The notes beneath the pieces were generated by a model. The model saw only the letters and a program-made list of their open reading frames with translations. It did not search any database and was not told the DNA's origin. The position numbers and the translations under genes were made by a program. A stretch of 64,000 bases of DNA from a virus, in IMG/VR virus record IMGVR_UViG_3300042502_001710, positions 1 through 64,000 of that record; one strand, 5' to 3'. Each line of letters opens with the position of its first letter. Within the stretch, counting starts at the first letter, position 1. Below are positions 28,850-51,918 of this stretch, in pieces.

Positions 28850-28851
28850 TA

Positions 28852-29550: not shown

Positions 29551-29582
29551 AATTAAGGACTCCCATGTTAATTGTGATTGGT

Positions 29583-30885: not shown

Positions 30886-30893
30886 TAGTGCTC

Positions 30894-33864: not shown

Positions 33865-34357
33865 ATTTTTCCTGTTTGATAGATAAATTTCTAATACATT
33901 CAATCGTTGAATCGTAATCATTAAAATTCAAATAATTGTCCCGCACACTATCGTTAGACGCTAAAAAGAAATGGTCTGTCTCAAACAGATCTATTTTTCT
34001 AGAATCTTCGTTTAACATCGTATCTATTTTAGAAAATAAATCTTTATCTACGGTCATTCCAGCTTGCACTTTTACAAAGTATGTAGCTTGTGCCAATTTT
34101 TGAAAGCATTCTGTGTCTCTCAGGGTGAGATTATCATGCAAATGGAACACAGCTTCTGAAGCCAGAAATCTCTCTTGAAGGATGTTTACAAAATGAACTA
34201 TCGTTTGACAATTGCTAGAATGATTTTTTGATATAACAACCTTGACCTTGTTGTTGTCATAGTTTATCTGCTTTAATGAATCGATAGTGTTTTTTAAATT
34301 TTCAATTTCAACATCTTCATTGCAATAAACAGCTAGTCCAAATAAAGTATTTTTCAT
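33851..34357 (-). CDS. Small GT2-like protein
   Basis: This 168-residue protein begins MKNTLFGLAVYCNEDVEIENL and has NNKVKVVISKNHSS as a second strand, like the N-terminal half of a GT2 enzyme. It lacks a clear DxD and is shorter than usual (GT2 domains are about 200-250 residues). FHLHDNLTLRD may be the equivalent site. It overlaps the next gene by 14 bases. It could be a trimmed glycosyltransferase or an accessory subunit. Its function is uncertain. Confidence 0.5.
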   Translation of the reverse strand: MKNTLFGLAVYCNEDVEIENLKNTIDSLKQINYDNNKVKVVISKNHSSNCQTIVHFVNILQERFLASEAVFHLHDNLTLRDTECFQKLAQATYFVKVQAGMTVDKDLFSKIDTMLNEDSRKIDLFETDHFFLASNDSVRDNYLNFNDYDSTIECIRNLSIKQEKYEKI

Positions 34358-34358
34358 G

Positions 34359-34778
34359 TTAAGCCCTCACGGCTTTCACTTCGTAGTGCAAGCCATCCAT
34401 ATGGATTGAAATAACTCTCAAGTTGACGCTTTCCAATTGCTGCCTAACCATGTCTGATGTTGACATAGAGTGTATTGACCTGACTATTTCACAAGCTTCT
34501 TCTGGAGAAAGAATTCCATTCAGAAGATGCTTTGCGAAAAATCTAACGTCTGTACCTCCTAAAACAAGTTGACCATTGAACCTGAGCTTGCTCACCAAAG
34601 CTTTGCATAGCTGCGGAAGGATTTCATTGTTGAATGAGTCCACAAGGTCGGCAGCGAGGATATTTTCACACGAGTTATCAACAAGGTGTGAAATTTCCAA
34701 TGAGTTTGGAGATTCAACCTTGACAACTTCGTATCCAACAATAGCTTCCTGATCTTTTCTTACGATTTGCACTTTCAT
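34359..34778 (-). CDS. Short methyltransferase-like protein, SAM motif I not seen
   Basis: This 139-residue protein has LVDSFNNEILPQLCKALVSKLRFNG and QLVLGGTDVRFF, which resemble the central-to-C-terminal part of class I methyltransferases (the helix before strand 5 and the G-G-x-L/V turn). The expected N-terminal GxGxG motif I is absent. Either it is a truncated relative without SAM binding or it partners another protein. The gene overlaps the upstream glycosyltransferase as ATGA. Methyltransferase activity should not be assumed. Confidence 0.5.
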   Translation of the reverse strand: MKVQIVRKDQEAIVGYEVVKVESPNSLEISHLVDNSCENILAADLVDSFNNEILPQLCKALVSKLRFNGQLVLGGTDVRFFAKHLLNGILSPEEACEIVRSIHSMSTSDMVRQQLESVNLRVISIHMDGLHYEVKAVRA

Positions 34779-35755
34779 TTTACCACCCCGTGTACTTTGT
34801 CAAAGGTATTGTTCCATTGTTTAATAAAACGCTGTTCTGAAAACTTTTCTTCAATTGTTAGTCTTGCTTCGGCTCCCATTGTGGCAGCTAAATCTGGATC
34901 TGCAAGCAATTGCTCTGTGAATTTTCTCAATTCATTTTCGTCGTTGGACATAAATCCGTTGACACCATTCTTAATTATATTTGGTATTTCACACGTTTCA
35001 GTCGTCACGATTGCACATCCACAAGCCATAGCCTCAAGCATAGACGTTGGCACTGGGCTCAACACACTAGGGTTTATATAAACCAAAGCACTTTGATAGG
35101 ATTTGATCAGATCTTCTACAGATTCACTTTGCTTTGAAAGACCCTCTGTTTCACCAACAACGAGGCGTGGCAAACCCTTTGTGATTCTTTCCCATCCAGA
35201 ATAATTCAACGCATAATCACGTTTGATAAAATCGTGAGCTACGGTCAAAACGCCAGATCTTTCAATCTGACTGTCTGGCTTAAAAGCTTCAGTGTCAATA
35301 GAGTGATAAATTACATCTCCTGTCATTCCCCATTGCTTCTTGGAGTACTCTGTGATGAATACGTTGACATCACCCTTCATGGCCTGAAAGTGTTCAAGCT
35401 GCTCATTCGGCCATTGAGGCAAAGGAAGTGTGTGTTCCAAGCATAGGATTGGAATCTGTAAAGTTCTATTGATTTGCGTAGCCGTTTGGAACTGACCAAA
35501 TTTACTGTTCACCAGTATAAAATCAAAAGGCACTCCGGGATACAATGAATTCTTAGGAAGCTGATAATAATTCTTTGGCATAGGGGCATGACCGCTAAAC
35601 CAATCTTTGCCTCCATCATGATTAAAAGCGTAGAAATCATGTCCAGTTTTAGCTAGTTGAGTTTGATATCTTTCGTGAGTATTGAAAGTCAATACATTGT
35701 AAGGTGTTTCTTTTGGCTTGTTGTGTCTGTTAAAAATAGAGTGTAATTTAAGCAT
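34775..35755 (-). CDS. GT4-family glycosyltransferase
   Basis: This 326-residue GT-B enzyme has a classic GT4 donor domain: TSMLEAMACGCAIVTTETC, then EIPNIIKNGVNGFM, which holds the E-x7-E-like element and the G-x-P-region equivalent. RLVVGETEGLS near residue 200 marks the linker strand. The first 150 residues form the acceptor domain. The start overlaps the preceding gene by eight bases. It transfers a sugar from a nucleotide donor with retention of configuration, as is usual for GT4. Donor and acceptor are unknown. Confidence 0.8.
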   Translation of the reverse strand: MLKLHSIFNRHNKPKETPYNVLTFNTHERYQTQLAKTGHDFYAFNHDGGKDWFSGHAPMPKNYYQLPKNSLYPGVPFDFILVNSKFGQFQTATQINRTLQIPILCLEHTLPLPQWPNEQLEHFQAMKGDVNVFITEYSKKQWGMTGDVIYHSIDTEAFKPDSQIERSGVLTVAHDFIKRDYALNYSGWERITKGLPRLVVGETEGLSKQSESVEDLIKSYQSALVYINPSVLSPVPTSMLEAMACGCAIVTTETCEIPNIIKNGVNGFMSNDENELRKFTEQLLADPDLAATMGAEARLTIEEKFSEQRFIKQWNNTFDKVHGVVK

Positions 35756-36860
35756 CTAATGTCTCCTTCATTATCTTCCCAATACTTTTGATTGAAAACG
35801 CTTCTGATTTATCAAAAGCTTCTTTTTTCTTGTTGACTTTATAAACCGCTGGATTCTCTTTCCACTCGTTGTAAAGTCTTCTCATCGTGTCTTTGATTTG
35901 TTTCTCACAAGGTTTGATGATGTAATTCTTACCATTGCTGATGTCAGGCCAAAGTTCAGAGCGAACCGCATTGGTTTCATATACAGTGCTCACAGAGTAT
36001 TTGGCTCCAGTGTAATATTCAGCGTCTGTATCTTGTAACACAATGGGGGTATTTCCAAACGCCATAGCGTGAAACTCTTCACTAAAAAGAGATCGTTGGC
36101 TAAGGCTTGAAATATAACAGTCACAAAAAGCATGAGAATTATCTGAAGACTGAGCAAGATCGCCCTTGCTGACAATCATATCCTTTTTGTAAAAAGTAGG
36201 ATTCTTCTGAAGTCCAAGGTTTGATTTTACTTTAGAAATCCTATCATCAAGACCGTTGGCATTTTCACCATTGATTTGAATCACAAGTACTGCGTCGTCA
36301 GCATGGTCAAATTCAGAATGAAAACATCTGATCACTCTTTCTATTTCTGGATTTTCTAAATTGCTGATGGTATAAAATCTAAATTTACCTTCAGACTCAA
36401 TGCCTCCCTTTAACGCTGGATGATGCTTCTTGTAGACGTCTGTGTCAAAAGCAAAAGGAACCACAACGGTTTTATCTCGAAGAACAGTATTGTCCAACGC
36501 CTGTTTTGCGAAAGGTGAAGAAACCCATATTTGATCCATTGTGTTGAGCTTTTCTACCCAGCAAGAATGATCAATGGTCACAAATTCATTTGCTAGTATT
36601 CCAATATTCTTCTTAAAATTGGAAGATGCCAACATATGATTTGGGAACAAATGCTGAATACAAATGTCGCAATCATTGGTTTGATTTTTTTCCACGTTGA
36701 ATATATCACTTGGCGTTCGATTGTCTTGAAATACAATTGATCGACACGCTACATCCACACCTGCGGACATCAAAGCTTTGATATTATTTACCGCAAACTT
36801 TCCCCAATCGCCATATTCTTTGTAGTATCCTAGGTACAGAACCTTGTTGGTCTTTATCAT
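35748..36860 (-). CDS. GT-B glycosyltransferase (GT4-like)
   Basis: This 370-residue protein begins VLYLGYYKEYGDWGKFAVNN and has FRFYTISNLENPEIERV as the donor-domain strand, HAMAFGNTPIVLQDTDA as the donor-site loop and C-terminal ESFSI-like FSIKSIGKIM. This is the overall layout of GT-B enzymes. AAAGG ten bases upstream is the ribosome binding site. The E-x7-E motif is imperfect (EFHAMAFGN), so family GT4 is probable but not certain. Together with the next gene it makes a GT4 pair in the island. Confidence 0.7.
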   Translation of the reverse strand: MIKTNKVLYLGYYKEYGDWGKFAVNNIKALMSAGVDVACRSIVFQDNRTPSDIFNVEKNQTNDCDICIQHLFPNHMLASSNFKKNIGILANEFVTIDHSCWVEKLNTMDQIWVSSPFAKQALDNTVLRDKTVVVPFAFDTDVYKKHHPALKGGIESEGKFRFYTISNLENPEIERVIRCFHSEFDHADDAVLVIQINGENANGLDDRISKVKSNLGLQKNPTFYKKDMIVSKGDLAQSSDNSHAFCDCYISSLSQRSLFSEEFHAMAFGNTPIVLQDTDAEYYTGAKYSVSTVYETNAVRSELWPDISNGKNYIIKPCEKQIKDTMRRLYNEWKENPAVYKVNKKKEAFDKSEAFSIKSIGKIMKETLDA

Positions 36861-36866
36861 ATCGTA

Positions 36867-37430
36867 TCAACCTTTCTTTATTACAATCATAATATCGTCA
36901 TATCTATCTTTTATGTGTCTTCTGTCAAACACTTCTACTCTATCGTTTGATTTTAATGAAATAATATTCTTCAATAATAAAGATATTAAATCCATATTTT
37001 GAATATCTTCAATAACCATCAATCCACCGCTTTTCAACAGTGGCATATAATAATTTAGAACAAATAACTGGTGTAAAGGAAGATGTGAGCCATCATCAAT
37101 AATAATGTCAAACGGCCCTTTTGACCTAGTTAATTCTAAGGTTTTTTCACAATAGGCATCTACGCCCATAACAATATCGACATTATCATATTGATTATTC
37201 AAATCATGAAGTTCTTTCAAATCGTTTATTTCTAGCCCATGAATATGTGCCGATTTAAAATAATCAATCCACAGCTTTATAGATCCACCTAAGTTGTTGC
37301 CTATTTCAAGTAGATTTATATCGTTGTCTCTGTATGGTGCCAAAACTTCATCATATACCTCAAGATATGAATGCGTTGTATCTTTATCGGTACAATACCT
37401 AGGAGTTGAAGACATTTCTGATAATTTCAT
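36867..37430 (-). CDS. Class I methyltransferase of the MycE/sugar O-methyltransferase type
   Basis: This 187-residue protein has motif I as INLLEIGNNLGGSIKLW, strand 2 ending IHGLEIN and the metal-type motif FDIIIDDGSHLPLH, then GGLMVIEDIQ. The IDDGSH-x-IED pair is typical of Mg-dependent sugar O-methyltransferases such as MycE. The start overlaps the stop of the upstream gene by one base (TAATG). It probably methylates a sugar of the phage glycan; the exact position is unknown. Confidence 0.75.
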   Translation of the reverse strand: MKLSEMSSTPRYCTDKDTTHSYLEVYDEVLAPYRDNDINLLEIGNNLGGSIKLWIDYFKSAHIHGLEINDLKELHDLNNQYDNVDIVMGVDAYCEKTLELTRSKGPFDIIIDDGSHLPLHQLFVLNYYMPLLKSGGLMVIEDIQNMDLISLLLKNIISLKSNDRVEVFDRRHIKDRYDDIMIVIKKG

Positions 37431-38197
37431 TAATCGACTTTCAGGTTATAGTTTTTGATAAAGTTCATGCCTGCGCTGTTAAATTCTCCGTGAAATCCAA
37501 AAGACCCATAACTAAATAAAATTCTTCTGTCAAAATTCTTATAAGGTGTAGGATGTTCCACTGAAAACTTTGCTGCAAGTTCAGGTGGAGCAAAATTTAT
37601 ACCAGCATTCTTCATGGCGTCATAGCTGAAAACACAAGCATTTAAATCTTCATTTTTGTGTTGCCATCCTAGTTTCGCTGATTCTTCCACAAACTTGCGA
37701 GTTCTCAGTGAAAACCCTCCGTTGCCAACAACGTTCGGGATTTTCTCTATGCGACCAGCCACCATATCGCTTGCTTGTATGATATTCATAGGCCAAGGAG
37801 CACCAGTGTAGTCATAGTCAAGATATCTTTGGTCCCATTTGCTGCCGTCGATGATGGTGGAGTCGTGCTGAACATTCAAACAAAAATCATCAACAATGTA
37901 TCGATTCACCTGTTGAATAAACGATTCACAAAAACCTATTCGATTCGTGTCATCATCAAACATGTTTTCGTTCAAGTTGACATTCATGTCATAGACTTCT
38001 ATACCAAAAGAGTCTATCACTTTTGAGAAGATTGTCAAATCAGTTTTTGAACTATCAGTGATTAAAACTGAACGTTTAAAATTTACCTGATCCATACCAA
38101 TCAGCATCGCTCTGAGAGATTTTGTTACATGCTCTGTTCCCCAGCAGAATGTAAAGATTGTAACATCTGGTAGCTGTAGTTTATTTCCAGTATTCAT
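37430..38197 (-). CDS. DUF5672-like glycosyltransferase
   Basis: I chose the ATG at 38197 (MNTGNKLQLP; 255 residues) because AAGGA lies five bases upstream. The in-frame ATG at 38218 has no ribosome binding site. Characteristic DUF5672 motifs are DYTGAPWPMN, VVGNGGFSLRT, HKNEDLNACVF and FGFHGEF. The family is GT-A-like and is found in surface polysaccharide loci. The gene overlaps the end of the upstream epimerase gene. Acceptor unknown. Confidence 0.8.
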   Translation of the reverse strand: MNTGNKLQLPDVTIFTFCWGTEHVTKSLRAMLIGMDQVNFKRSVLITDSSKTDLTIFSKVIDSFGIEVYDMNVNLNENMFDDDTNRIGFCESFIQQVNRYIVDDFCLNVQHDSTIIDGSKWDQRYLDYDYTGAPWPMNIIQASDMVAGRIEKIPNVVGNGGFSLRTRKFVEESAKLGWQHKNEDLNACVFSYDAMKNAGINFAPPELAAKFSVEHPTPYKNFDRRILFSYGSFGFHGEFNSAGMNFIKNYNLKVD

Positions 38198-39197
38198 ACA
38201 TTCCTTTTTGTATTTCATATTTCATGGTTTTTTGTTCACGAACAGGTTGTGTGATTGCCCACTGAAACATTTCATCTACAGTTTGTTCTAAATCTGTATT
38301 GTCGTAAAAACATAAGTTTCTATCATCTTTGATCATCGAGTGGTCACATTCCGCGTGTTTTGCTTCGTGTCTTTCTTGCACATATTTTCTTGAAGCTGTG
38401 CGTGAATACTTGCGTGCCACTTTCTCCACAATGTCTGACAACTCATTCAATGAATAAGACTTGTCGGAACCTATATTGAACGTACAACCATCGCACACAG
38501 TCATCAATTTTTCTAAGGGTTGCATACAATATTTGATGTCTGAAAAAGCCCTAGTTTGATTTCCGTCTCCGTAGATCAACATTGGCTCATCGTTTAAAAC
38601 CTTGCGAATAAAGATTCCCACAACGTTTCTGTATCTGTCCCAGATATTCTGATAAATGCCAATCACATTGTGCGGTCTGAGTATTGTGTATCTTAAACCA
38701 TGTTGCACAGAGGCTATTCTGATATCTTGCTCCACAGCGTATTTGGCGACTCCGTATGGATCGATTGGCCTTGGAGTCATATTTTCTGTAAACGGCGTTT
38801 GTTGGTCTCCGTAGACAGCCATAGAGGACGTGAAAATCAACTTAACATCGTGGTTTACGCAAGCGTTCACAACATTGACACTAGACAATATATTGTTGGT
38901 ATAATTATAGTTACGAATAAACGGGGACAATCCTTCTGCTGCATATGCGGCAAAGTGATAGCAAGCCACTGGTTTTTCTCGATTGAAAATATCGTTTAGT
39001 CTTTGTGGAGCATTTTCTGCCGACAAATTCAAAAGATGAAATTCAATCTGCTCGAACGAGGTGTCTTTGGGCAAGTAGTCAACGTGCCCACCACTAAGAT
39101 CATCTATGCCAATTACCCTATAACCACTTTTCAACAAATGTCTAGTAAAATGAGACCCTATCAATCCAACACATCCCGTGATTATTACAGATTTCAT
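38181..39197 (-). CDS. NAD-dependent sugar epimerase/dehydratase (GalE-like)
   Basis: I chose the ATG at 39197 (MKSVIITGCVGLIGSHF; 338 residues) for its ATGA overlap with the upstream stop. The 16 extra residues from 39245 are poorly supported. The NAD motif is TGCVGLIG, with Cys where Gly/Ala is usual. The active-site set is TSSMAV then PYGVAKYAVE (YxxxK). LRPHNVIGIYQNIWDR matches UDP-glucose/UDP-GlcNAc 4-epimerases. It makes a modified nucleotide sugar in the cytoplasm. The exact substrate cannot be fixed from motifs. Confidence 0.85.
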   Translation of the reverse strand: MKSVIITGCVGLIGSHFTRHLLKSGYRVIGIDDLSGGHVDYLPKDTSFEQIEFHLLNLSAENAPQRLNDIFNREKPVACYHFAAYAAEGLSPFIRNYNYTNNILSSVNVVNACVNHDVKLIFTSSMAVYGDQQTPFTENMTPRPIDPYGVAKYAVEQDIRIASVQHGLRYTILRPHNVIGIYQNIWDRYRNVVGIFIRKVLNDEPMLIYGDGNQTRAFSDIKYCMQPLEKLMTVCDGCTFNIGSDKSYSLNELSDIVEKVARKYSRTASRKYVQERHEAKHAECDHSMIKDDRNLCFYDNTDLEQTVDEMFQWAITQPVREQKTMKYEIQKGMYEYWK

Positions 39198-40882
39198 TGT
39201 ATGGCACCTCTTTGCTGCATAACTTCTACTCTGCGTTTTTCCCACTGATTGATTTTATTTCGTCGCATAACCATTTGGTTGTAAGCTGCGTTAAAATCAA
39301 AATTATGTCTATGATTCATGCCGTCAAAAGCCTGAGAAGATTCATTGAAATACATTCCTCCGGTAGAACCAGTGGTTTGCTTGTATGTCAAGTCTCTTGT
39401 CAATCTAGATTCAAAGAATGAATTCAACATGCTTGGATCTTTCAACACGTTTGCGATCAAAAACCTAGCAAGCTTTGTTGATTCTACTTGAGCGATGGTT
39501 TCTTCGCTTGGCTTAGGGTCTGGTTCTAGAATCCTTGGTGGAGAAGCCCAAGTTTGTTCGATTGGCCTGATGGGCAAAGAGTCAAAAATATTTTCCCACT
39601 TAGATCCACTCAAGTTCCATTGAAAGTATTGTTCGAAATTAGAGCGAGTGCGTTTGCCAATTTCTGCTCGTTCTTCGTCAGTGAACTTTTCAAAGAATTC
39701 TAGAAAATATTCTGCTGCTAGATCATTGTCGGGAACTGCTCGCAAGCATCCAGTTTCCAGTTCTTTGTAGAGTGCTGCTGGTTTGATTGGATAACCTCCC
39801 AGCTTTCTTATTTCACTCTCCATCGCAGAGTAATCTGTTCCGCAAACAGGAACACCGCAAGCTGCCGCTTCAACATAAGGAAGACCAAACCCTTCACAGT
39901 TTGCATACTGAGTGTATAGATCAAATAGATTTTGGATATTTGATAGCTCTTCGTATGAAGCTCCAGTTTTAACATTCGACAATGTTGCGTTCCATCTGCC
40001 GGTGTACGGAGATTGAGCCACAGCACCCCTGAACAATGATGGAAATGGCTTTTTGGTTTCTTGACAGATGTATGTGAACAAAACGTGTGAAGATAAATCG
40101 TTTTGTAAAAGCAATTCTGGAATATCCCATCCCAAGTCAGGATAAGATGTGTGACAATAAAGATAATAATTCTTGCTGTTTGCTTTGTCAAGAAATTTTC
40201 GAAACGCTTCAAATAAGTCTGGGTATAATTTACGACGCTGATTGCGCATCACAGTGCCTATGATTTTATAATCAGGATTGAGACCCATAGAAATCTTGTG
40301 AATCTTTTTGTCTGCCACTGGCTTGTATGCTGGATGAGCAGAAGGTGGAGAAGAACCCCAGTATTTCATCTTGCCGCCAGATTGTTTCAGTAAAACTTCA
40401 CCAGCCCAATCAGAATAGGTCAGAACGCCATTGGCTCCAGAGTATGTGGAAATCCATTGGCGAGCTTGAGGTCTAGCATCAACGGTTGGCATGATCACCC
40501 AATCAAAGAATGGGCGAAAAGGGCTACGTTCTGCAAAGTCTAGCATCCAGAAGTCTCTGATATCGCAGACAACGTCTGGCATAAAATCTAGACAAACGTG
40601 CTCAAATATAAATTCACCGAATTGGTTTGTTCCAACTTCGTGATAAGCATCCATCTCTTGCTTTGAGGCTTTTGGCTCACACTCTGTGTTTGGCTGAACA
40701 CCATAATACTTCCAAGGAATATCGGCAGCTCTTGGGTCATTTCTTTGACCATAACTGGACATTTCAGCCAGCTCATATTTTCCTGTTGAATGTAAGTAAT
40801 TTAAAATTTCACGAGTGTAAGTAGCGTAACCAGTGTTTAGAAAAGTGGCTTCACTACAAAACAATATCCTCTTTTTTCTCAT
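39194..40882 (-). CDS. GT4-family glycosyltransferase with C-terminal extension
   Basis: I chose the ATG at 40882 (MRKKRILFCSEATFLNTGYA; 562 residues) because AAGGA lies upstream; the start at 40924 adds 14 residues without support. Residues 1-400 are GT-B: IGTVMRNQRRKLYPDLFEAF marks the linker and donor start, and EGFGLPYVEAAACGVPVCGT is a textbook GT4 donor site. After about residue 440 comes a 120-residue extension without recognised domain (Pro-rich, then FNESSQAFDGMNHRHNFDF). It might tether the enzyme to a partner or virion protein. Confidence 0.82.
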   Translation of the reverse strand: MRKKRILFCSEATFLNTGYATYTREILNYLHSTGKYELAEMSSYGQRNDPRAADIPWKYYGVQPNTECEPKASKQEMDAYHEVGTNQFGEFIFEHVCLDFMPDVVCDIRDFWMLDFAERSPFRPFFDWVIMPTVDARPQARQWISTYSGANGVLTYSDWAGEVLLKQSGGKMKYWGSSPPSAHPAYKPVADKKIHKISMGLNPDYKIIGTVMRNQRRKLYPDLFEAFRKFLDKANSKNYYLYCHTSYPDLGWDIPELLLQNDLSSHVLFTYICQETKKPFPSLFRGAVAQSPYTGRWNATLSNVKTGASYEELSNIQNLFDLYTQYANCEGFGLPYVEAAACGVPVCGTDYSAMESEIRKLGGYPIKPAALYKELETGCLRAVPDNDLAAEYFLEFFEKFTDEERAEIGKRTRSNFEQYFQWNLSGSKWENIFDSLPIRPIEQTWASPPRILEPDPKPSEETIAQVESTKLARFLIANVLKDPSMLNSFFESRLTRDLTYKQTTGSTGGMYFNESSQAFDGMNHRHNFDFNAAYNQMVMRRNKINQWEKRRVEVMQQRGAIQ

Positions 40883-40952
40883 TTTATTCCTTGCTATCTG
40901 AGCGTCCGAATCAGTAAAAAACACAGCTATCCATCTGTTCCGCTTGTGTACT

Positions 40953-40981: not shown

Positions 40982-42547
40982 TCAAATTTCATGAATTTTC
41001 TCTACAATAAATGAATTATCCTTATCAACTTCTCCGCAAAGCATAAGATTGTTTCCTTCATAAAGAATAAAATGGTATACGTCTCTGACGTCTGGAAATA
41101 CGATCACACTGTCTAAACTGCATGTGGCGTCTTCTATTGTCAGAAAAGACATGACTCTTCCTTTTTGTTTGCTGTTTGCTTTATTTATCTTGTGATTGGA
41201 TACACGCTGAACATTTGCTACAAGACAAATGTTTTTACCCTTTCTTCCATTCACAATGTCCTTGCACGTAGCGTTTGCTACAGACGTATCCACAGCGTCT
41301 ATCTTTGAAAGAGAAATTGGACATCCAAGCATCTTGGTTTCTTGATCGACGATCCACGCTGGATCATCTTTCAGATCATACGGTGGATTTTTCAGCATGT
41401 TCAGTTCATTCAATATGATCTGATTGCGATTCACATTGCTTGCTCCTCCTCCATTTTTCTTGGTTGGAGCCAAATCATTGAAACATTCGTCAAGTTTTTG
41501 CCATTGTCTTTTTGCTTGATTCTCGAAGACCCATTGCACTTCGTTCTTGGTTAGTTCTTTAAAGATCAAATATTCATAAATAGCCTGATTTCTGGTGACA
41601 CCTGTGGATTTTGTCGAAAAGAAACCAATAGCACACAAAGCTTTAAATGCTGTCGAATTAATCTTTGGGGATAAATAAACGAGCACATCCAGCCAAGTGA
41701 ATTCTGATGGTTGCTTTTTGATTTCATCAACTGCTTGAGCGATAGCCTGAATGACTTTGTCGCCAGTCACACCCGTCAAGCTTTTGATGTCTTTTATTCC
41801 AAAACAAATGCCGTCATTTGTAATACAGAATTTAGTGGAAAACCCACTTAGTTTAGGAATCTTTACTTCTATATTGAATAGTTTAGCTTCATTGACCAGC
41901 TCATAGATTTCTTGATGAGGATCTTGCTTTTCATTAGCATAGAACAAGTAAGACAGGAAAAACTCTTTTGTATGATGAGCTTTGTACCAAGCTGACCAAT
42001 AAGAGTCTAAGGCGTATGCTACAGCATGTGATTTATTGAAAGAATATCTGGAAGACTTTTCAATCCATCCAAAAATTTCTTTCGCCGTTTCTTCGTCTAC
42101 AAGTCCTACGTTTTTACATCCAGCAATAAAATCATTTCGAATCGAGGCCATCAAATCAGCCTTCTTTTTGCCAATAGCCTTGCGAAGGTTGTCTGTTTCA
42201 GTTTCGCTGAAACCAGCTAGCTTTACTGCAATCCGCATAGCTTGTTCTTGATAAACTAAAACCCCATAAGTTGGTTTTAAAATATCTTCAAGCGATGGAT
42301 GTAGATATGAAACTTCTTCCCTGTTGTGTTTTCTGTCAACAAACCTTTGTGTCATTGACTTTCCGTCGATGATAGCCTTGGTACACCCCGGTCTCAAAAG
42401 TGCTATCAATGCAGCAAGTTCTTCTATGTTTTCCGGAGCCAATTTTTTAGACCAATTGCGACCATGATTACTTTCTAATTGGAAAATCCCTTTTGTCAAA
42501 CCGTTTTTGTATAGGCTCCAAGCCTCAGGATCATTTCTGTCGATCAT
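40982..42547 (-). CDS. dnaE: DNA polymerase III alpha, C-terminal half (fingers to OB)
   Basis: This 521-residue protein begins where the fingers domain of C-family polymerases begins. GIFQLESNHG (residues 20-29) matches the VFQLES element. LRPG, then KPTYGVLVYQEQAMRIA (91-107), RKAIGKKK and FNKSHAVAYAL (170-180) are typical landmarks. Helix-hairpin-helix-like and OB-type strands (VMSFLTIEDATCSLDSVIVF) follow. The catalytic aspartates are absent here; they lie in the upstream half at 43243. Both halves must associate for activity. The start follows the exonuclease gene after 25 bases. No intein sequence is visible at the split. Confidence 0.92.
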   Translation of the reverse strand: MIDRNDPEAWSLYKNGLTKGIFQLESNHGRNWSKKLAPENIEELAALIALLRPGCTKAIIDGKSMTQRFVDRKHNREEVSYLHPSLEDILKPTYGVLVYQEQAMRIAVKLAGFSETETDNLRKAIGKKKADLMASIRNDFIAGCKNVGLVDEETAKEIFGWIEKSSRYSFNKSHAVAYALDSYWSAWYKAHHTKEFFLSYLFYANEKQDPHQEIYELVNEAKLFNIEVKIPKLSGFSTKFCITNDGICFGIKDIKSLTGVTGDKVIQAIAQAVDEIKKQPSEFTWLDVLVYLSPKINSTAFKALCAIGFFSTKSTGVTRNQAIYEYLIFKELTKNEVQWVFENQAKRQWQKLDECFNDLAPTKKNGGGASNVNRNQIILNELNMLKNPPYDLKDDPAWIVDQETKMLGCPISLSKIDAVDTSVANATCKDIVNGRKGKNICLVANVQRVSNHKINKANSKQKGRVMSFLTIEDATCSLDSVIVFPDVRDVYHFILYEGNNLMLCGEVDKDNSFIVEKIHEI

Positions 42548-42572
42548 TCAAACCTCAACATATAATGGTTAT

Positions 42573-43250
42573 TCACACAATGAACAAATCGCCGTCAACA
42601 AAAGCGTTATCAAATTTCATGTTTCTGTATACTGCACGTCTTGACTTTTGTAATTTTATAAAAATATTGGCTGTATCTTTAACGTCTTGCAATGCATCGT
42701 GAGCGTTTTCAGTAGAAAGACCCATTCTTTTTCTGAGAGCGTCCATGCTGATGGATTTAACCTCTGGATCACTTTCTGTCCATAGCCAAACATCATCCAT
42801 TACATCTATCTTATAGATTTGATGAAATAACTTTTGTTGCAGTCGCACTTCATCCCACGGTCCATATTGTTTGCACAGTCTATTCACAATGTGCATATCA
42901 AACCCATTGATGTTAAAGCCACAAGGAATAGGAGCAAAAAACGGTGTGCCTTTCCAATTGTACTTGTTCACAAAGTTTGTAAACTTTTTCCAAACAGCTT
43001 TTGGCAATGGTGCTTTGGCCAATACCTCTCGTGTCTGTCTGGTGATTTTTAACGCTTCTTCTTCTAGCGGACCCACTCCTGCTGCAATAGCAGCTTCATC
43101 GTCGATGATTGGTCTCATCAAGCTGTTGAAGGTTCCTTTTAGTTTAAAATTTCTACCATCAAGAGCTATAGCAGCTATTTGAGTTGGTTGACATGTGTGC
43201 GGGTTGCGACCACCCGTTTCAAAATCGAACACCAGAACGTCCCTAACCAT
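42573..43250 (-). CDS. dnaQ: DnaQ-like 3'-5' proofreading exonuclease
   Basis: This 225-residue protein has the DEDDh exonuclease motifs: VFDFETGG (D9, E11), GFNINGFDMHI (D118) and HDALQDVKDT (H184, D189). It matches the epsilon subunit/exonuclease family. It lies between the two halves of the alpha polymerase gene and overlaps the upstream half by eight bases, so it probably proofreads that polymerase. The polymerase's own PHP domain looks degraded, which fits a separate proofreader. It lacks an obvious C-terminal clamp-binding motif. Confidence 0.92.
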   Translation of the reverse strand: MVRDVLVFDFETGGRNPHTCQPTQIAAIALDGRNFKLKGTFNSLMRPIIDDEAAIAAGVGPLEEEALKITRQTREVLAKAPLPKAVWKKFTNFVNKYNWKGTPFFAPIPCGFNINGFDMHIVNRLCKQYGPWDEVRLQQKLFHQIYKIDVMDDVWLWTESDPEVKSISMDALRKRMGLSTENAHDALQDVKDTANIFIKLQKSRRAVYRNMKFDNAFVDGDLFIV

Positions 43251-44877
43251 TGATTAGCTCCTTGATTTTCATTATTTTATCCAGTAAAGTGATACCGAGA
43301 ATGTCGAATTTGACGTGTCCTAAAGCTTCTAAATCAGACATTTCTAAACCTGCTATCTTTTCAGATCCGTTTTTTTGATTGACCATTGGGCATACTTTAT
43401 GAAGAGGTTCTGCTGATATAACAACACCAGCAGCATGTTTGCTTTGGGTTTTAAATGTTCCTTCAATATCTATTGCTTGCTGAAAATAAACAGCATAATC
43501 TCCTTTGAGTTCTCCTTCATCTGAAATGTAGCAATAATCTCTCAATTCTTTGGCGTTGTTTATCAAAGACCAACGAATAATAGATCGATCTTCTTCATCC
43601 ATTTCTGCCAATTGATCCGAGATATCGGCTTCATTTGGAATATATCTTGTAATTTCATTCATTTCGCTAAAGCCACAGGCATTGTTTACTCTTAAAACTT
43701 CTTTGATGGCACTTCTGCCTTGAAGTCTTCCAAAGGTTAACATTTGACTAACATTGGTGTTTGTATACTTGTCTTTTAAGTAAGCGATGATTTCGTCACG
43801 TTTTTCTCCCGGAACGTCCATGTCAATATCTGGCAAAGAGATATGATCCGCAGTGTTTCGTCCAGCATTATAAAACCTTTCAAACAAAAGGTCAAATTCA
43901 ATTGGATCAATTTGTGTGATACCAATCAAATAAGATATCAAACAGCCTGCTGCCGACCCTCTGCCGGGACCGACCATCCAACCTTGACTGCGACAATAGT
44001 TTAAAATATCCCAAACTATCAGGAAATATCCAAAGAGATTTGCTTGCTCGATAACTTCATATTCTCTGCGAAACCTGTCACCATAAACGGTACGTTCATC
44101 AACGTTTTTGATTTTGTCGTTCAACAGCTCTTTCCAACCTTGCCTTGCCAATGTTTTTAAAAAGTCTTTTTCAGACTCTCCGCTTGGAGTAGCAAACGTG
44201 GGCAGCATCGGTTGATTGAGAATGTTATAGTTTTCGCATTTATCGAAAATCTCTTGAAAATCATCGACACGAGCGTCATTCACTAAAATGTGTGATATCT
44301 CATTCTTTGCTTTGAGATAGAAATCGTCAGAGGTGAAGAATTGCCAATTCTTGATCGATGGGCATTTATTTGATGCCAGCTCTTTCTTTACCTGAGGAAG
44401 GGTCATTTTGTTTGCTGAGCAAAGAATAATTCTATGCAATTCAGCTTGATCTTTGTTTGCATAAAATGTCTTTGTGAAAGATTCAGACCAAGCGTAGAAA
44501 TCGTCACCATTGATTGGCGATGAAACTTCTTTCGAAGCTACGCAAATCAAGTTTCCGTTTTTACCAAGTTGAATCAGTAAAGAAGGATCGTAATTGCCAT
44601 CTTCATCTATAGAAGATACGATCTGGATCAACTCAAGCCATCCGTTTTTATTCTTAGCGAAAATGGAAAAGTCATCGAATGAACATCCAATGATAGGCTT
44701 GATATCGTTGTCTACACAGGCTTTGTAGAAAGACACGGCTCCGGAAATTGACTTGTAATCAGCTATCCCACACGCTGGATAGGAATTCTCTTTACACTTT
44801 TTAGCAAGTTCTTTGGGTCTTGAGAAACCATACTGCAAAGAATAGTGTGTGTAATTCAGTAACGGAAACCATTTCAT
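43243..44877 (-). CDS. dnaE: DNA polymerase III alpha, N-terminal half (PHP and palm)
   Basis: This 544-residue protein starts with a PHP-like domain (YTHYSLQYG, then CGIADYKSISG), whose metal ligands are incomplete as in E. coli DnaE. Palm landmarks are WMVGPGRGSAAGCLISY (about residues 302-318), SLPDIDMDV, carrying the two catalytic aspartates, and HVKFDILG near 524, carrying the third. The protein ends at KIMKIKELING, just before the fingers, which are encoded by the gene at 40982. AAAGG and an extended -10 promoter precede the start. All three catalytic aspartates are in this half. Confidence 0.92.
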   Translation of the reverse strand: MKWFPLLNYTHYSLQYGFSRPKELAKKCKENSYPACGIADYKSISGAVSFYKACVDNDIKPIIGCSFDDFSIFAKNKNGWLELIQIVSSIDEDGNYDPSLLIQLGKNGNLICVASKEVSSPINGDDFYAWSESFTKTFYANKDQAELHRIILCSANKMTLPQVKKELASNKCPSIKNWQFFTSDDFYLKAKNEISHILVNDARVDDFQEIFDKCENYNILNQPMLPTFATPSGESEKDFLKTLARQGWKELLNDKIKNVDERTVYGDRFRREYEVIEQANLFGYFLIVWDILNYCRSQGWMVGPGRGSAAGCLISYLIGITQIDPIEFDLLFERFYNAGRNTADHISLPDIDMDVPGEKRDEIIAYLKDKYTNTNVSQMLTFGRLQGRSAIKEVLRVNNACGFSEMNEITRYIPNEADISDQLAEMDEEDRSIIRWSLINNAKELRDYCYISDEGELKGDYAVYFQQAIDIEGTFKTQSKHAAGVVISAEPLHKVCPMVNQKNGSEKIAGLEMSDLEALGHVKFDILGITLLDKIMKIKELING

Positions 44878-44950: not shown

Positions 44951-46366
44951 TCAAATTCTTGTTATTTTCATCAATCTGTCAACATGATTTTCTGGTGAAG
45001 TATCCCCGAAATTTGTTACTTTTTCAAATTTTAACCCATGCTTACGTAAATGATAATCGTAAAATGAATAAGGTCTGCAAACAAATGGGAATTCTAGCCA
45101 TCTTGCATTATCTTCATTTTTATCTGAAGTATTTATGCTAGCTATACAGACGCCATCATCTTTCAGGCTGCTAGATATTTTATCTAATACATCGTCTAAA
45201 ATTTCATCATCTAGGTGAATAAAAACTTGAAAACACAATATAAAATCAAATTTCAAATTTATATCTGACCATTTATTCGTTAATTTAGGGTTTTTAAAAA
45301 GGAGATTATTATCAGAAACTTCCTGTTTAGCCTCAATCAATCTATGTTCTGAAATATCAAACCCATAATAATTGTTTACATCTAAGTATTTAATGATAGG
45401 AAGACCAACTCTCAAAACTCCGCAGCCAAGGTCTAGTACTTTGTATTCTGGTTTCAATAAATCAATAACATATTTTCCAAAATATTTTCTAGCTGAATCA
45501 AAATAACCTGCGGTGCATACGAGATTTTGTCTGTACTCAGGAACGTATTTGAATTCGTCTTTTTGCATCAATGATAAGTAAATGTCTTTGTCTTGTAATA
45601 TTTTTTTTCTTAACCCTTTATGTACTCTTCGAACACAAGCCATCTCATATGCTTCTTCATTGTCAGCATCTCCTATCTTAGTAACTCTAGAAGTTTGAGT
45701 AGAAGTGATCCTATACATAAGCAATATTTCATCTAAATTTCTTATTTGGTAACCAGCTTTAGCTAATATCGAATAGAATATGAAATCAGGAAATTTATTC
45801 TTATGTAAATTGAAACTTTTTTGAAAATGACCGATTATATTGCAATCAAATCTTTGTAAGATTTCTTTCTTCATCATCGTAGTAGGGTTATTGATGCACC
45901 AGTTTGTTGTAAAAATAAAATCGTTCACATTAAAGTGATGATAAATCAAAGATTCTTTTGGATTCACAGCGTGTTTTATGTCGCTTTTAGCACAAAAAAA
46001 TTGTATTTGACATCCTAATATATCCACGTCCTCATTTTTAAGAAGAAAATTAAATTGTTTTTCTAACCTTTCTGGCAACATTATATCGTCAGAATCCATG
46101 AAAGCGATATATTTACAATCAAAATCTAGGGAATCTTTTGCATATATCCTATTAGTTATGTCACCTAAATTTTTAGGTGAGAACAAAACTCTTATTTTTT
46201 CATCTTTAATATTTTTTAGATATTTTATAGTATCAGGATTATTACTTGCGTCATCGACGATTATCAACGTCCAACTTTTTAAAGATTGACTTTTAATGCT
46301 CTCAATTGCTTCTTGCAGGAATGTTACGCAAGTATTATATACTGGCATTATTATATTTACGACCAT
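44951..46366 (-). CDS. GT2 glycosyltransferase-methyltransferase fusion
   Basis: This 471-residue bifunctional protein has an N-terminal GT2 domain: VNIIMPVYNTC, TLIIVDDASNNPDT and YIAFMDSDDIMLPERLEKQ (DSD near residue 91), typical of inverting family 2 enzymes. Residues of about 285-471 are a class I methyltransferase with VLDLGCGVLRVGLP (309-322), YYGFDISEHRL and FDFILCFQVFIHLDD. It probably adds a sugar and methylates it or its neighbour, a coupling known for polysaccharide chain capping. It overlaps the upstream gene by ten bases. Start: ATG at 46366, MVVNIIMPV. Confidence 0.88.
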   Translation of the reverse strand: MVVNIIMPVYNTCVTFLQEAIESIKSQSLKSWTLIIVDDASNNPDTIKYLKNIKDEKIRVLFSPKNLGDITNRIYAKDSLDFDCKYIAFMDSDDIMLPERLEKQFNFLLKNEDVDILGCQIQFFCAKSDIKHAVNPKESLIYHHFNVNDFIFTTNWCINNPTTMMKKEILQRFDCNIIGHFQKSFNLHKNKFPDFIFYSILAKAGYQIRNLDEILLMYRITSTQTSRVTKIGDADNEEAYEMACVRRVHKGLRKKILQDKDIYLSLMQKDEFKYVPEYRQNLVCTAGYFDSARKYFGKYVIDLLKPEYKVLDLGCGVLRVGLPIIKYLDVNNYYGFDISEHRLIEAKQEVSDNNLLFKNPKLTNKWSDINLKFDFILCFQVFIHLDDEILDDVLDKISSSLKDDGVCIASINTSDKNEDNARWLEFPFVCRPYSFYDYHLRKHGLKFEKVTNFGDTSPENHVDRLMKITRI

Positions 46367-48339
46367 AGTACATTATCCCAAGATTGTTTGAAATGATCAG
46401 AAGAGTAGTTATCCTTTATAAAGGATTTATTTTTAGCTTCCTTTATTGATTGGTCACATATTCTTATTTCTTTAACCCACTCAGAATAATGAGCTTCATA
46501 CGGAATAATTTTATCGGAATACTTTCCAACTCCAGCAGAACTTGATACGCTAGGTATGCCATTCGCTATACTTTCAGCTATTGATATACCAAACGACTCG
46601 TCCAAAGATGTCGATAAGGACAAAGAGCACATGCTAAATAAATCAGACATGTCTTCTAAAAGACCGTAAAAGAATACGTTACTAATGTCTGGAGATAGCA
46701 TTCTTGTTTCTACTGAATTTATAATTTCCTGTGTGCATATTGATGGTATCCAGTTTCCAGCGATATGAAAAGTATAATCTGGCATAGCTTCAATTATATC
46801 TAATAAAATACTGAGACCTTTATTTGTCTCTAACCTATGATGCCATAGAACATTTTTTCTTATAGGATTTCTTGTTATATCTTTTTCTTTTATTATAGGA
46901 GGTATATGTATTCCATTGTGTTTTTTCACTACATGTTCATCTACGCATACAAACTTGTCTGGTTTGAAAAACTTTAATATGTCATCTATAACACTGACTC
47001 TTAAGCTTCCATGAGATATAAATATGATTTTTTTGTTTTTAGGATTTAATAACCAAAAGTCTGGTATTGGCATACTGTGAATCCAGTAAATCCAGTAAAT
47101 GATTATGTCAGATTTCTCGTAAAGCTCATGCATGTGATCTATTGTGAATCCTCTTTTCAATCCACATGTGACATCATTATACTCTGGAACATCTTCGACA
47201 GCTACTATTCCAGTTATATCATCTTTATAAAATGAAACAAAGTCATTCAACCAAGTCAATGCTCCTCCGGGCATCAAATTATTAAAAAATATTCCAATCT
47301 TGTTCTTAACGAAGAAATCAGTGTCATAATCTAAATTTTTACTAACAAGATTTACTTTTTTCAAATTTTCAAAATGAAATTTAGTGTTGTTGTACTGCTC
47401 TTCTTTATTTAGAGTAAAGTCTCCAAGACTAAATTGATTTAATACATATTTTCTGTATTCAGGTTTATTATTAAGTCCGTTCAAATGAATAAAATAAGAA
47501 TCATGTGTAAAATACCAAAAATATTTTCCTTCATATTCACAATTAAATTTGTGAGTAAGATTATTAAATTTTTCCTCTGGAAGCTCCAAAGTTAAAAGAT
47601 GTTGATCAAAACACCAAAATTTAGTATATGGACTGCTTGGTTGTTTATAATAATCCGCCAAAGCGTTTGGTACAACAAGAACGCCACCGTTGATCATTGA
47701 TTCTGTTATGAATTCGCCATTTTTTACATACTCTTCTTTTATCTCTTCTGGAAAGGAGTCTAGTGTGGTGAGAAATATAGATTCTTGTTGCTTTCTGATC
47801 CATCCAGTATCATTTCTTTGTTTAAAAATCTCATATTCATCGTATGCAGATATTTTATCATCTGGTGTTAGCTCAAATATATTCGGAGCATCATCCTTTA
47901 CGACAATGTCACAATCTAAATATAATGTTTTGTCATACGCTTTTGCTACCCTGTTTAGTCTATATTTATTTGACATAGGCCAATTTGGGTTTTGATCTCC
48001 AGACAACTCTATGTAATCAGCACCACATTTTTCTGCGTACTTCTTTACGCCAGACCGTGTGATATCAAGCAATTCCATAGCGGAATCATTCGCGGGAATG
48101 ACACACACAGCGTATTTACTTTTTTTCTCTGGTAGAATATCAAAGAAATTTACTATGTCAGCTTTTGTTTCGTCAGGGGCTTTTTTTAAAACCCTCACAG
48201 TACTATCCATTTTATTAAAATAGTCACGACGCTGATCCTCTGACAGTGATTTGCACCACTGCCAGTTTGGAGGATCATACGTCATTTCTTTTTTGAATAA
48301 ATCACACCAACCGGCATTTTCACATTGACATTCAGGCAT
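46357..48339 (-). CDS. Two-domain glycosyltransferase (GT-A plus GT4)
   Basis: This 660-residue protein has a Cys-rich leader (C4, C6, C12, C29), then a GT-A domain at about 70-340 with KTLYLDCDIVVKDDAPNIF, whose DCD (142-144) is a DxD site like that of GT8 enzymes. Residues of about 350-660 form a GT-B donor domain with NVLWHHRLETNKGLSILLDI and SLDESFGISIAESIANGIPS (from about 577), a GT4 signature. One chain may therefore add two sugars. AGGAG lies before the ATG. The leader might bind metal. Specificity unknown. Confidence 0.82.
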   Translation of the reverse strand: MPECQCENAGWCDLFKKEMTYDPPNWQWCKSLSEDQRRDYFNKMDSTVRVLKKAPDETKADIVNFFDILPEKKSKYAVCVIPANDSAMELLDITRSGVKKYAEKCGADYIELSGDQNPNWPMSNKYRLNRVAKAYDKTLYLDCDIVVKDDAPNIFELTPDDKISAYDEYEIFKQRNDTGWIRKQQESIFLTTLDSFPEEIKEEYVKNGEFITESMINGGVLVVPNALADYYKQPSSPYTKFWCFDQHLLTLELPEEKFNNLTHKFNCEYEGKYFWYFTHDSYFIHLNGLNNKPEYRKYVLNQFSLGDFTLNKEEQYNNTKFHFENLKKVNLVSKNLDYDTDFFVKNKIGIFFNNLMPGGALTWLNDFVSFYKDDITGIVAVEDVPEYNDVTCGLKRGFTIDHMHELYEKSDIIIYWIYWIHSMPIPDFWLLNPKNKKIIFISHGSLRVSVIDDILKFFKPDKFVCVDEHVVKKHNGIHIPPIIKEKDITRNPIRKNVLWHHRLETNKGLSILLDIIEAMPDYTFHIAGNWIPSICTQEIINSVETRMLSPDISNVFFYGLLEDMSDLFSMCSLSLSTSLDESFGISIAESIANGIPSVSSSAGVGKYSDKIIPYEAHYSEWVKEIRICDQSIKEAKNKSFIKDNYSSDHFKQSWDNVLWS

Positions 48340-49411: not shown

Positions 49412-50644
49412 TTAAACGAGTTCTTTGATTGCGTTTCCGCCATTTGCGATACGCATTGGTCGTCCATTTTTCGACGTATAATCTTTGCTGGTGTCTATAT
49501 CAAGAGCAGAACAAACGGTTGCCATAAGGTCTGAAGCTTGATAGATCGATCCTTGAGGTTGAGTTCCGTCTTCTGAAGTTGATCCAATGACTTGCCCATT
49601 CTTGAACAACCCACCTGAAACAAAAGCGCTCCAACTCATAGCCCAGTGATCTCTGCCAGCATCCCGATTGATTTTGGGCGTTCGACCAAACTCGCCCATC
49701 ATGATGATAGCGGTATTTTCCCACATGTCAAGTCTTTTCAGATCAACTATCAATGCGGAAATTGCTTTGTCTAATTCTGGCAATTTATTGTCTTTTAGCG
49801 TTTCGTGAGTCATTTGATGCAAATCCCAGCCTCCAAATCCAACTTCCACAAAAGGAACTCCGACTTGAATCAAACGGCGTGCCATCAATACGCTTCGGCC
49901 AAAGCTAGTGTTTCCATAAGCGTCTTTCGTTTGTTGAGGTTCTGTGTCAACCTTGAGAGCATCCATCTGTGGAGAAGTATTTAACTTTATGGTTTTTTCA
50001 TACAGCTTTTTATGGTCTCTTGGCAATTCTCCTCGTCTAGAATTGATAAAATTATCTTCGACAAAAGATAAAGCGTCCAAACGATTCAGATTGAGTTTGT
50101 TGCCTAGATTATTTACATTTCCATTGGAATCTACCACAAAGGGATTGTGCGAAGTTCCTAAAAATCCACCGCCTACACTTCCAGTGTTGACAGAAAAAAA
50201 CGATGGAATATCTAGTTCTTTTCTGTTTTTTCCAAGTTCAAAAGATGCCACAGAGCCAATGGATGGATGCTGCACTGTTGGAGAGGGTTTGAATCCAGTG
50301 TGCATATAATATGCTCCACGCTCATGATCTGCTTCTTGAGTGGACATGCTTCTGATCAAAGAAAAGCTATCGCCAAGCTGTGCCAACAAAGGCAGATGTT
50401 CACAAATCTGAAAATCCCCAGTTGTGCTGATAGGCTTGAATGGACCACCGTTCTTGGTGTTTGGTTTCAAGTCCCACATATCGATAGTTGGAGGACCGCC
50501 GCCCAGCCATATTAAAATTGCAGATTTTTCTTGTTTGCGTAATTTAGACGCATTTTCAATGATACTATGACCAAAAGCGTAAGATGTGGAGGCTAAAGCT
50601 GCAAGTCCACCAACATGCTCTAAGAAATGTCTTCTGTTTATCAT
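49412..50644 (-). CDS. Tat-exported DUF1501 protein (first copy)
   Basis: This 410-residue protein starts with a twin-arginine signal: NRRHFLEHVG then a hydrophobic Ala-rich stretch (LAALASTSYAFG, residues 13-24). Conserved DUF1501 features follow: IWLGGGPPTIDMWD, HERGAYYMHTG and EFGRTPKINRDAGRDHW, whose Asp and His residues match metal-site positions of the alkaline-phosphatase/sulfatase superfamily. It is likely exported folded to the periplasm. The enzymatic reaction is not established for the family. It overlaps its paralogue by four bases (ATGA). Gene use is AT-rich like its neighbours, so it is well adapted to this genome. Confidence 0.9.
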   Translation of the reverse strand: MINRRHFLEHVGGLAALASTSYAFGHSIIENASKLRKQEKSAILIWLGGGPPTIDMWDLKPNTKNGGPFKPISTTGDFQICEHLPLLAQLGDSFSLIRSMSTQEADHERGAYYMHTGFKPSPTVQHPSIGSVASFELGKNRKELDIPSFFSVNTGSVGGGFLGTSHNPFVVDSNGNVNNLGNKLNLNRLDALSFVEDNFINSRRGELPRDHKKLYEKTIKLNTSPQMDALKVDTEPQQTKDAYGNTSFGRSVLMARRLIQVGVPFVEVGFGGWDLHQMTHETLKDNKLPELDKAISALIVDLKRLDMWENTAIIMMGEFGRTPKINRDAGRDHWAMSWSAFVSGGLFKNGQVIGSTSEDGTQPQGSIYQASDLMATVCSALDIDTSKDYTSKNGRPMRIANGGNAIKELV

Positions 50645-51918
50645 ATAATAATATCCTTTATAATTTTTCCAAAATCAACAATCTCTATCGGTCTGCCTCC
50701 GGGGGCCATGAGTTCTTTATCAGCATTGATTCCCATTTGATGGTAGATTGTCGTTGCCCAATCATGAATTTCAACCGGATTGTTTTGAGGCTCTGATCCA
50801 GTTGTGTCTGAAGATCCGTAAACAATACCACCCTTGATTCCGCCTCCAGCAAGAACTGAACTGAAAACTCTAGGCCAATGGTCTCGTCCTCCTGTAGAAT
50901 TAATTTTTGGAGTTCTTCCAAATTCAGAAATTACACAAACCAAAGTTGAACTCAAAAGCCCTCTGTCTGATAGATCTTGAATCAATGAAGCAAAACCTTG
51001 ATCAAAAGCTGGAAGTTGAGATTTGATACCATTTTCTATACCGTCATGCATATCCCAACTGCCATATGTCAAGGTGACGAACCTTGCTCCAGCTTCCACA
51101 AGTCTACGAGCCAAAAGCATTCTGGCTCCAGCGGTATTTCTACCGTATCTGTCTCGTGTTTCTGGCGATTCTTTTTCTAGCTTAAATGCTTCTTGAGTCT
51201 CAGAATTTCCTATCAAGTCATAGGCTTTGTCATAAAAGGAGTTCATAGCCATCAAAGTATCTGCCGATTTATTTTGATTGATAAAATCTGAGTTTATCAG
51301 ATCCAAAGCTTTTTTTCTTTTGTCGAATCTTTTGGCGTCGATTTGAAGAGCAAGATCTTTTACCTTAAAATTATCACTAGCAGGATCAGAGTTAAGATCA
51401 AAAGATCCAAAAGAACTGCTCAGATAACCAGTTCCAGCAAATTCATTTGATTGATTTGGAATAGAGATGTACGCAGGTATACTGTTTTTAGATCCAAACT
51501 CATGACTTACAACGGCTCCTATGGATGGGTATTGAATCGCTGGACTTGGTTTATATCCAGTGAATATATTGTGTGTGCCTCGTTCATGAGCAGCTTCACC
51601 ATGAGTCATGGAGCGAAGTATTGTTAACTTGTCTGCAATCGTCGCTGTTTTCACCAAAGACTCATTTAGCTGAATACCATCGACATTGGTGTTGATTGGC
51701 TTCATCGACCCTCGGTACTCTACAGGCACATTGATTTTAGGATCAAATGATTCCTGAGCAGCAATGCCTCCGGGAAGATATATAAAAATCACACTCTTTG
51801 CTGTGCCTTCCACACTGCTGTGACTCTTTATGTCAGCAAGCGTCATATTATGACCGATTGCAGCTAAAACTCCAGCTTGCAAGAAGCCTCTGCGACCAAT
51901 GTGAACATGGTGTAACAT
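50641..51918 (-). CDS. Tat-exported DUF1501 protein (second copy)
   Basis: This 425-residue paralogue has signal GRRGFLQAGVLAAIGHNM (RR at 9-10) and the same motif order: IYLPGGIAAQESFDPK, HERGTHNIFTGYKPSP, EFGRTPKINSTGGRDHW and GRPIEIV near the end. QESFDPK matches the family's D-x-F-D-P-K element more closely than the first copy does. The two differ widely outside the motifs, so the duplication is old or the genes were acquired separately. It is expected in the periplasm or at the cell surface. Its role in infection is unknown; hydrolysis of surface sulfate or phosphate esters is a guess from the superfamily. Confidence 0.9.
   Translation of the reverse strand: MLHHVHIGRRGFLQAGVLAAIGHNMTLADIKSHSSVEGTAKSVIFIYLPGGIAAQESFDPKINVPVEYRGSMKPINTNVDGIQLNESLVKTATIADKLTILRSMTHGEAAHERGTHNIFTGYKPSPAIQYPSIGAVVSHEFGSKNSIPAYISIPNQSNEFAGTGYLSSSFGSFDLNSDPASDNFKVKDLALQIDAKRFDKRKKALDLINSDFINQNKSADTLMAMNSFYDKAYDLIGNSETQEAFKLEKESPETRDRYGRNTAGARMLLARRLVEAGARFVTLTYGSWDMHDGIENGIKSQLPAFDQGFASLIQDLSDRGLLSSTLVCVISEFGRTPKINSTGGRDHWPRVFSSVLAGGGIKGGIVYGSSDTTGSEPQNNPVEIHDWATTIYHQMGINADKELMAPGGRPIEIVDFGKIIKDIII

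Follow-up and report, generated by a model that had tools for sequence, protein, structure and literature searches.

Family C replicases consist of a single chain in nearly all the phages and bacteria examined other than those described here. In E. coli the alpha subunit of DNA polymerase III (Pol III) is one chain, and dnaQ does not lie inside dnaE. Cyanobacterial DnaE is split by an intein, and there are 'fractured genes' that carry split inteins together with an endonuclease. Phage enzymes in pieces have also been described. The family B polymerase gp43 of Aeromonas phages 25 and 44RR and the NrdA protein of Aeh1 are split enzymes with homing endonucleases nearby, and the separately encoded gp43 fragments of one Aeromonas phage co-purify and polymerise (PMC2988022). 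Group 2.2 jumbo phages encode a minimal split Pol III alpha from distant genes and have a PolB as well (PMC7824862). Here we analysed a stretch of viral DNA of 64,000 nucleotides (nt) (positions 1 to 64,000 of IMG/VR record IMGVR_UViG_3300042502_001710, hereafter the window), in which Pol III alpha is encoded by two neighbouring genes, alpha-N and alpha-C, with the gene of a DEDDh-type exonuclease between them. Split phage replication enzymes were already known; what appears to be new is the full-length family C version with an exonuclease gene in between. In our literature search, no paper turned up that describes such a replicase, complete in its domains, as residing permanently in two neighbouring genes with a proofreader gene between them.

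We consider it very likely that this locus encodes the phage's own family C replicase, an obligate two-chain enzyme that was born by gene fission and has a dedicated DEDDh proofreader. The three open reading frames (ORFs) lie exactly where a first-pass annotation of the window, made from the sequence alone, had placed them (aa, amino acids):

43243..44877, minus strand: alpha-N, 544 aa, with PHP (metal site degenerate), palm, thumb and all three catalytic Asp
43258..43263, minus strand: AAGGAG, Shine-Dalgarno of the exonuclease, formed by Lys-Glu codons near the alpha-N end
43243..43250, minus strand: ATGGTTAG, the 8-nt overlap of the alpha-N stop with the start of the exonuclease
42573..43250, minus strand: DEDDh 3'-5' exonuclease, probable proofreader, 225 aa (PF00929, PHROG 192, invariant residues)
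42548..42572, minus strand: 25-nt spacer from the exonuclease stop to the alpha-C start, with a GAGG Shine-Dalgarno-like motif
40982..42547, minus strand: alpha-C, 521 aa, with fingers, helix-hairpin-helix/beta-binding region and OB fold

The domain content that the annotation had assigned to the three genes was largely upheld. In alpha-N, matches to PF02811 (PHP, E 8e-15) and PF07733 (E 3e-67) accompany the catalytic motifs PDIDMD and KFDILG; the PHP, the palm and the three catalytic aspartates are thus present as claimed, with the amendment that the PHP metal site (HxH, DH) is gone. Alpha-C was said to start just before the FQLES element, which occupies its residues 22-26; it matches the fingers family PF17657 (E 2e-45) and, beyond the original description, contains the beta-binding and OB regions. 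The gene between the halves is a complete DEDDh exonuclease, as proposed: it matches PF00929 (RNase_T, E 2e-12) and PHROG 192, 'DNA polymerase exonuclease subunit', and its set of Asp, Glu, Asp, His and Asp (D9, E11, D118, H184 and D189) does not vary among 13 homologues, the most distant of which has 29% identity. Each half is predicted to fold confidently alone (AlphaFold pLDDT 88.5 for alpha-N and 86.9 for alpha-C), and the best Foldseek match was Pol III alpha for both (E 8e-36 and E 2e-21, respectively). By Pfam, NCBIfam and fold matches the enzyme carries GRGSAAG, PDIDxD, the KxD aspartate, fingers and PHP, all features of the DnaE type, from which it departs in not being a single polypeptide. 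It is not of the PolC type, since the exonuclease is a separate gene and not a PHP insert, and PolC models scored weakly.

Both halves matched one and the same TIGR00594 model, alpha-N covering 203-572 and alpha-C covering 585-1021, so that only about 12-15 residues are missing at the break. Likewise, the PDB profile matches of alpha-N end at Taq residue 636, and those of alpha-C begin at Taq 649 or E. coli 589. The break divides PHP, palm and thumb from the fingers, the beta-binding region and the OB fold and, by the published domain limits of alpha, lies just past the palm, in the loop behind the first helix there.

To establish how common this arrangement is, IMG/VR was searched with both halves; once duplicates had been removed by hand on contig name, 159 distinct viral contigs remained. 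These records are mostly fragments, and none in these searches was rated at least 90% complete. In all 133 contigs that contained both halves, the halves were separate ORFs with the exonuclease gene between them, and five further contigs of the same kind were found later. N-half identity to the window drops to about 41-45% in the most distant contigs aligned. The gene order is a stable family trait, and chance is excluded because the same order recurs in 133 of 133 contigs. Fusion of the gene in relatives, which the annotation had raised, was encountered in distant phages (about 28-36% identity) and in none of the 133 members of the split family; in a set dominated by a wider search, fused phage polymerases occupied 79 of the 95 loci examined. 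The best INPHARED matches had ~30% identity, those opened being fused or split elsewhere, and no cultured phage with the N-exonuclease-C order was found among the INPHARED records opened, out of more than 1,200, in line with the initial remark that this exact order was not known from a described phage. Relatives of the exonuclease in Bacteroides phages sit among unannotated genes. Pol III alpha was also seen in two ORFs in the cultured phages L071 and L072 (Cbastvirus) and L300 (Bacillus phage Jayan); there the palm itself is broken, near PDIDxD, and the two ORFs have no exonuclease between them.

These comparisons set the window clade apart from the closest described systems. The DnaE polymerases of Geobacillus phage GBK1, Streptomyces phage BillNye and Mycobacterium phage Myrna have fold and domains in common with the split enzyme; polymerases of this type differ in being one chain, in usually keeping the PHP site and in having the exonuclease gene absent or far away. 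Group 2.2 jumbo phages likewise carry a family C polymerase in two proteins (PMC7824862), whereas the window clade has the PHP and OB regions, neighbouring genes and no PolB in 18 long records. With gp43 and NrdA the clade shares an essential phage enzyme in pieces and, in many of its members, homing endonuclease-like genes nearby, and there the fragments were shown to work together, a precedent for assembly from separate chains; however, gp43 belongs to another polymerase family, and in those systems the break holds an endonuclease or untranslated sequence, in contrast to the exonuclease found in every member of the window clade. In the E. coli Pol III core, as here, the DEDDh proofreader is a protein of its own and the PHP metal site of alpha is degenerate (PMC3666897).

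The two halves appear to be maintained as functional proteins. Against contig L035, the ratio of non-synonymous to synonymous substitution (dN/dS) was 0.06 for the N-half, 0.10 for the exonuclease and 0.04 for the C-half, values that indicate strong purifying selection on the halves and do not fit the inactive relics that the annotation had considered. PDIDxD is retained in all 133 contigs and KxD in 131. Each of the 18 long records (77-174 kb) has a single place where matches to palm, fingers and RNase_T are found together, the fingers match falling in two pieces in two of the records, and the exonuclease is the sole RNase_T gene. Neither PolA (PF00476) nor PolB (PF00136) was found in these 18 records, although mostly fragmentary records could hide another polymerase.

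In maximum-likelihood trees (quick search, with SH-aLRT support and without bootstrap), the split-with-exonuclease clade formed one side of a branch, with support of 100 for the N-half and 98 for the C-half, and was rooted among single-chain phage polymerases. The simplest history would be a single fission of a one-chain phage gene, with no re-fusion since. Contig L327 is broken at the same palm-fingers place (L327:7681-8868) and carries an RNase HII gene (PF01351, E 1e-35) and two small ORFs, with no exonuclease, between the halves. Its split could be independent or shared with the clade: in the C tree it comes out as the sister of the split clade, and in the N tree, where its placement is unsettled, grouping with the clade is not rejected (p-AU 0.386). 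If L327, represented by one 14.9-kb contig and by long branches, is a true sister, the break could predate the arrival of the exonuclease.

Next, we compared the junctions. In most insert-free contigs the alpha-N stop overlaps the ATG of the exonuclease, the length shared being 8, 11 or 4 nt. Two different frames are thus in use, and this speaks against a conserved frameshift. Of 130 exonuclease starts in relatives, 114 have a Shine-Dalgarno-like motif ahead of them (about 13 expected), often built from the last codons of the N-half. Its position within the alpha-N end, together with the start/stop overlap, suggests that the exonuclease is translationally coupled to the N-half. At the C-half starts the motif was present in 25 of 123 cases (about 9 expected), a weak signal, perhaps since these starts were profile-placed. 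The proposal that the proofreader is made at a level matched to the halves was not supported, as coupling is suggested for the N-half and the exonuclease only, and many relatives carry extra genes at the junctions: spacing exceeds 150 nt between N-half and exonuclease in 52 of the 133 contigs, and between exonuclease and C-half in 42.

Among the inserts, a cluster of 20 consists of endonuclease VII-like genes, and one of 11 is, by eye, HNH-type and homing endonuclease-like, its representative giving only a weak helix-turn-helix match. A further cluster of 12, with 8 inserts between N-half and exonuclease and 4 between exonuclease and C-half, is a ~160-aa ORF without a Pfam or NCBIfam match. 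This ORF (L010:7652-8152, L021:8297-8779 and ten relatives) has a YDVKTKR stretch that by eye is PD-(D/E)XK-like. Other inserts resemble glycosyltransferases, methyltransferases and epimerases. Endonuclease-like genes thus occur at the junctions of many relatives, the exonuclease being there too in every case, and no homing endonuclease gene is found at the break in the window. The three proteins of L002 match those of the window at 98-100% identity, and L002 has such an ORF, absent in the window, between N-half and exonuclease, so production at a matched level is not a strict requirement. The invasion of both junctions by homing endonuclease-like and other genes in many relatives also means that the halves are separate genes.

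This bears on whether the halves are joined into one chain after all, by split-intein trans-splicing, a spliced intron or ribosomal frameshifting, as inteins do occur in this polymerase family. In-frame inteins were found at RPG|C in L017 and L298 (Pfam, sequences), and L047 (748-7826), besides being divided into N, exonuclease and C like its relatives, has split inteins at GRG|S and FNK|S, the two parts of each being separated by an ORF; L047 is of the fractured-gene type at other sites of the same polymerase. Cyanobacterial DnaE and the fractured genes are likewise two-piece enzymes, but there an intein rejoins the chains, and none of the inteins found in relatives lies at the N/C junction. 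Their restriction to other conserved sites argues against intein decay as the origin of the split; the intein positions do not prove fission by a homing endonuclease. In the window, intein models matched none of the proteins (Pfam) and no Rfam family reached the cut-off, the region giving sub-threshold chance matches only. Neither window junction shows an intein, intron or frameshift, which bears out the absence of an intein noted at first and extends it. With the overlap frames varying and whole genes occupying the junctions of many relatives, joining into one chain seems very improbable to us. A reading of the halves as relics or as an assembly artefact, for which the single-chain homologues of other phages might speak, we regard as next to impossible, given the same order in 133 contigs from many assemblies, the low dN/dS values, the conserved catalytic motifs and the lack of any other polymerase found.

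Two further observations concern these breaks. L192 and L194 carry the first split-intein site of L047. In L042:5950-7963 and L043:4271-6264, the N-half itself has a break just ahead of SLPDIDMD, and either side of the break carries extra sequence; the second piece begins with about 80 extra aa, and L042 gave no Pfam intein match. Either the polymerase is made in three pieces here, or the extra sequence is a split intein that has diverged very far.

We then asked whether the exonuclease proofreads for the split polymerase. The PHP metal site (HxH and DH) is kept in 68 of 76 fused phage polymerases, and an RNase_T gene was present in 4 of the 17 records with a fused polymerase, in none beside it. 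In the split clade, both PHP motifs are kept in 18 sequences and both lost in 96, the site being kept in basal members and lost in the derived clade, a pattern that would be expected had the exonuclease taken over proofreading. Parsimony gave two PHP-site changes inside the split clade, one of them probably due to L068, where the motif may lie upstream of the extracted sequence. For bacteria, Barros et al. (PMC3666897) reported a likely coevolution between loss of the PHP metal ligands and a separate proofreader. The decay of the PHP site beside the exonuclease, as in those bacteria, is support, though not proof, for a proofreading role of the exonuclease with this polymerase. Co-occurrence and PHP decay are also what would point to a role like that of Pol III epsilon, with alpha and clamp binding and mismatch editing.

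In the explanation we favour, alpha-N and alpha-C would make up an active polymerase, held together by non-covalent contacts where palm meets fingers, with the exonuclease encoded between them as its dedicated proofreader. The one-chain gene of a phage polymerase would have been cut once in the clade, in the loop after the palm; the split has not been reversed in any contig seen, and the PHP metal site would have decayed later, once the exonuclease was in place. Several observations weigh against this explanation: L327 has the same break without the exonuclease, the inserted genes mean that the enzyme can do without close coupling, the exonuclease is as similar to exonuclease I and the PolC exonuclease as to DnaQ, and another polymerase could have been missed in fragmentary records. 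The two-chain polymerase might also be real and the exonuclease serve recombination or DNA end processing, merely sharing the operon. Exonuclease I is among its best PDB profile matches, and a 3'-5' single-stranded DNA exonuclease could serve the UvsX-like recombination of the phage; but its constant place between the halves, its being the only RNase_T gene in the long records, the PHP decay that follows its presence and its PHROG 192 annotation make this unlikely. Comparably doubtful is a variant in which the exonuclease bridges the halves, giving an obligate alphaN-exo-alphaC core whose assembly would depend on the proofreader and in which proofreading would be inseparable from polymerisation.

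In this widespread, mostly uncultured phage clade, the only detected replicase comes permanently in two chains, cut between palm and fingers, which makes the clade a natural experiment on the separate supply of catalytic palm and fingers. The more than 130 contigs offer a comparative set for studying the fixation of a gene fission, the adaptation of the interface and the shift of proofreading from PHP to a DEDDh exonuclease. Split genes of this kind may account for 'partial' polymerase annotations in viromes.

Finally, the window also encodes a DnaB-like helicase, a primase, a UvsX-like recombinase, a phage exonuclease family protein, PhoH and NrdB. No match to a phage beta clamp (PF02767) was found, so the polymerase probably works with the host clamp or with none. 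On the minus strand, long tracts flank the polymerase genes (26548-40924 and 44951-48339) whose genes by eye resemble those of glycosyltransferases, sugar epimerases and methyltransferases, few of them family-checked. Two adjoining DUF1501 genes (49412-51918, minus strand; PF07394, E 7e-89 and 4e-110) lie further on, and 9 of the 18 long family records have 1-4 copies of DUF1501, which is common in Planctomycetes and thus a possible hint at the host of this phage family. At the other end of the window, a 3893-aa ORF with FG-GAP repeats (PF14312) occupies positions 115-11796 on the plus strand.
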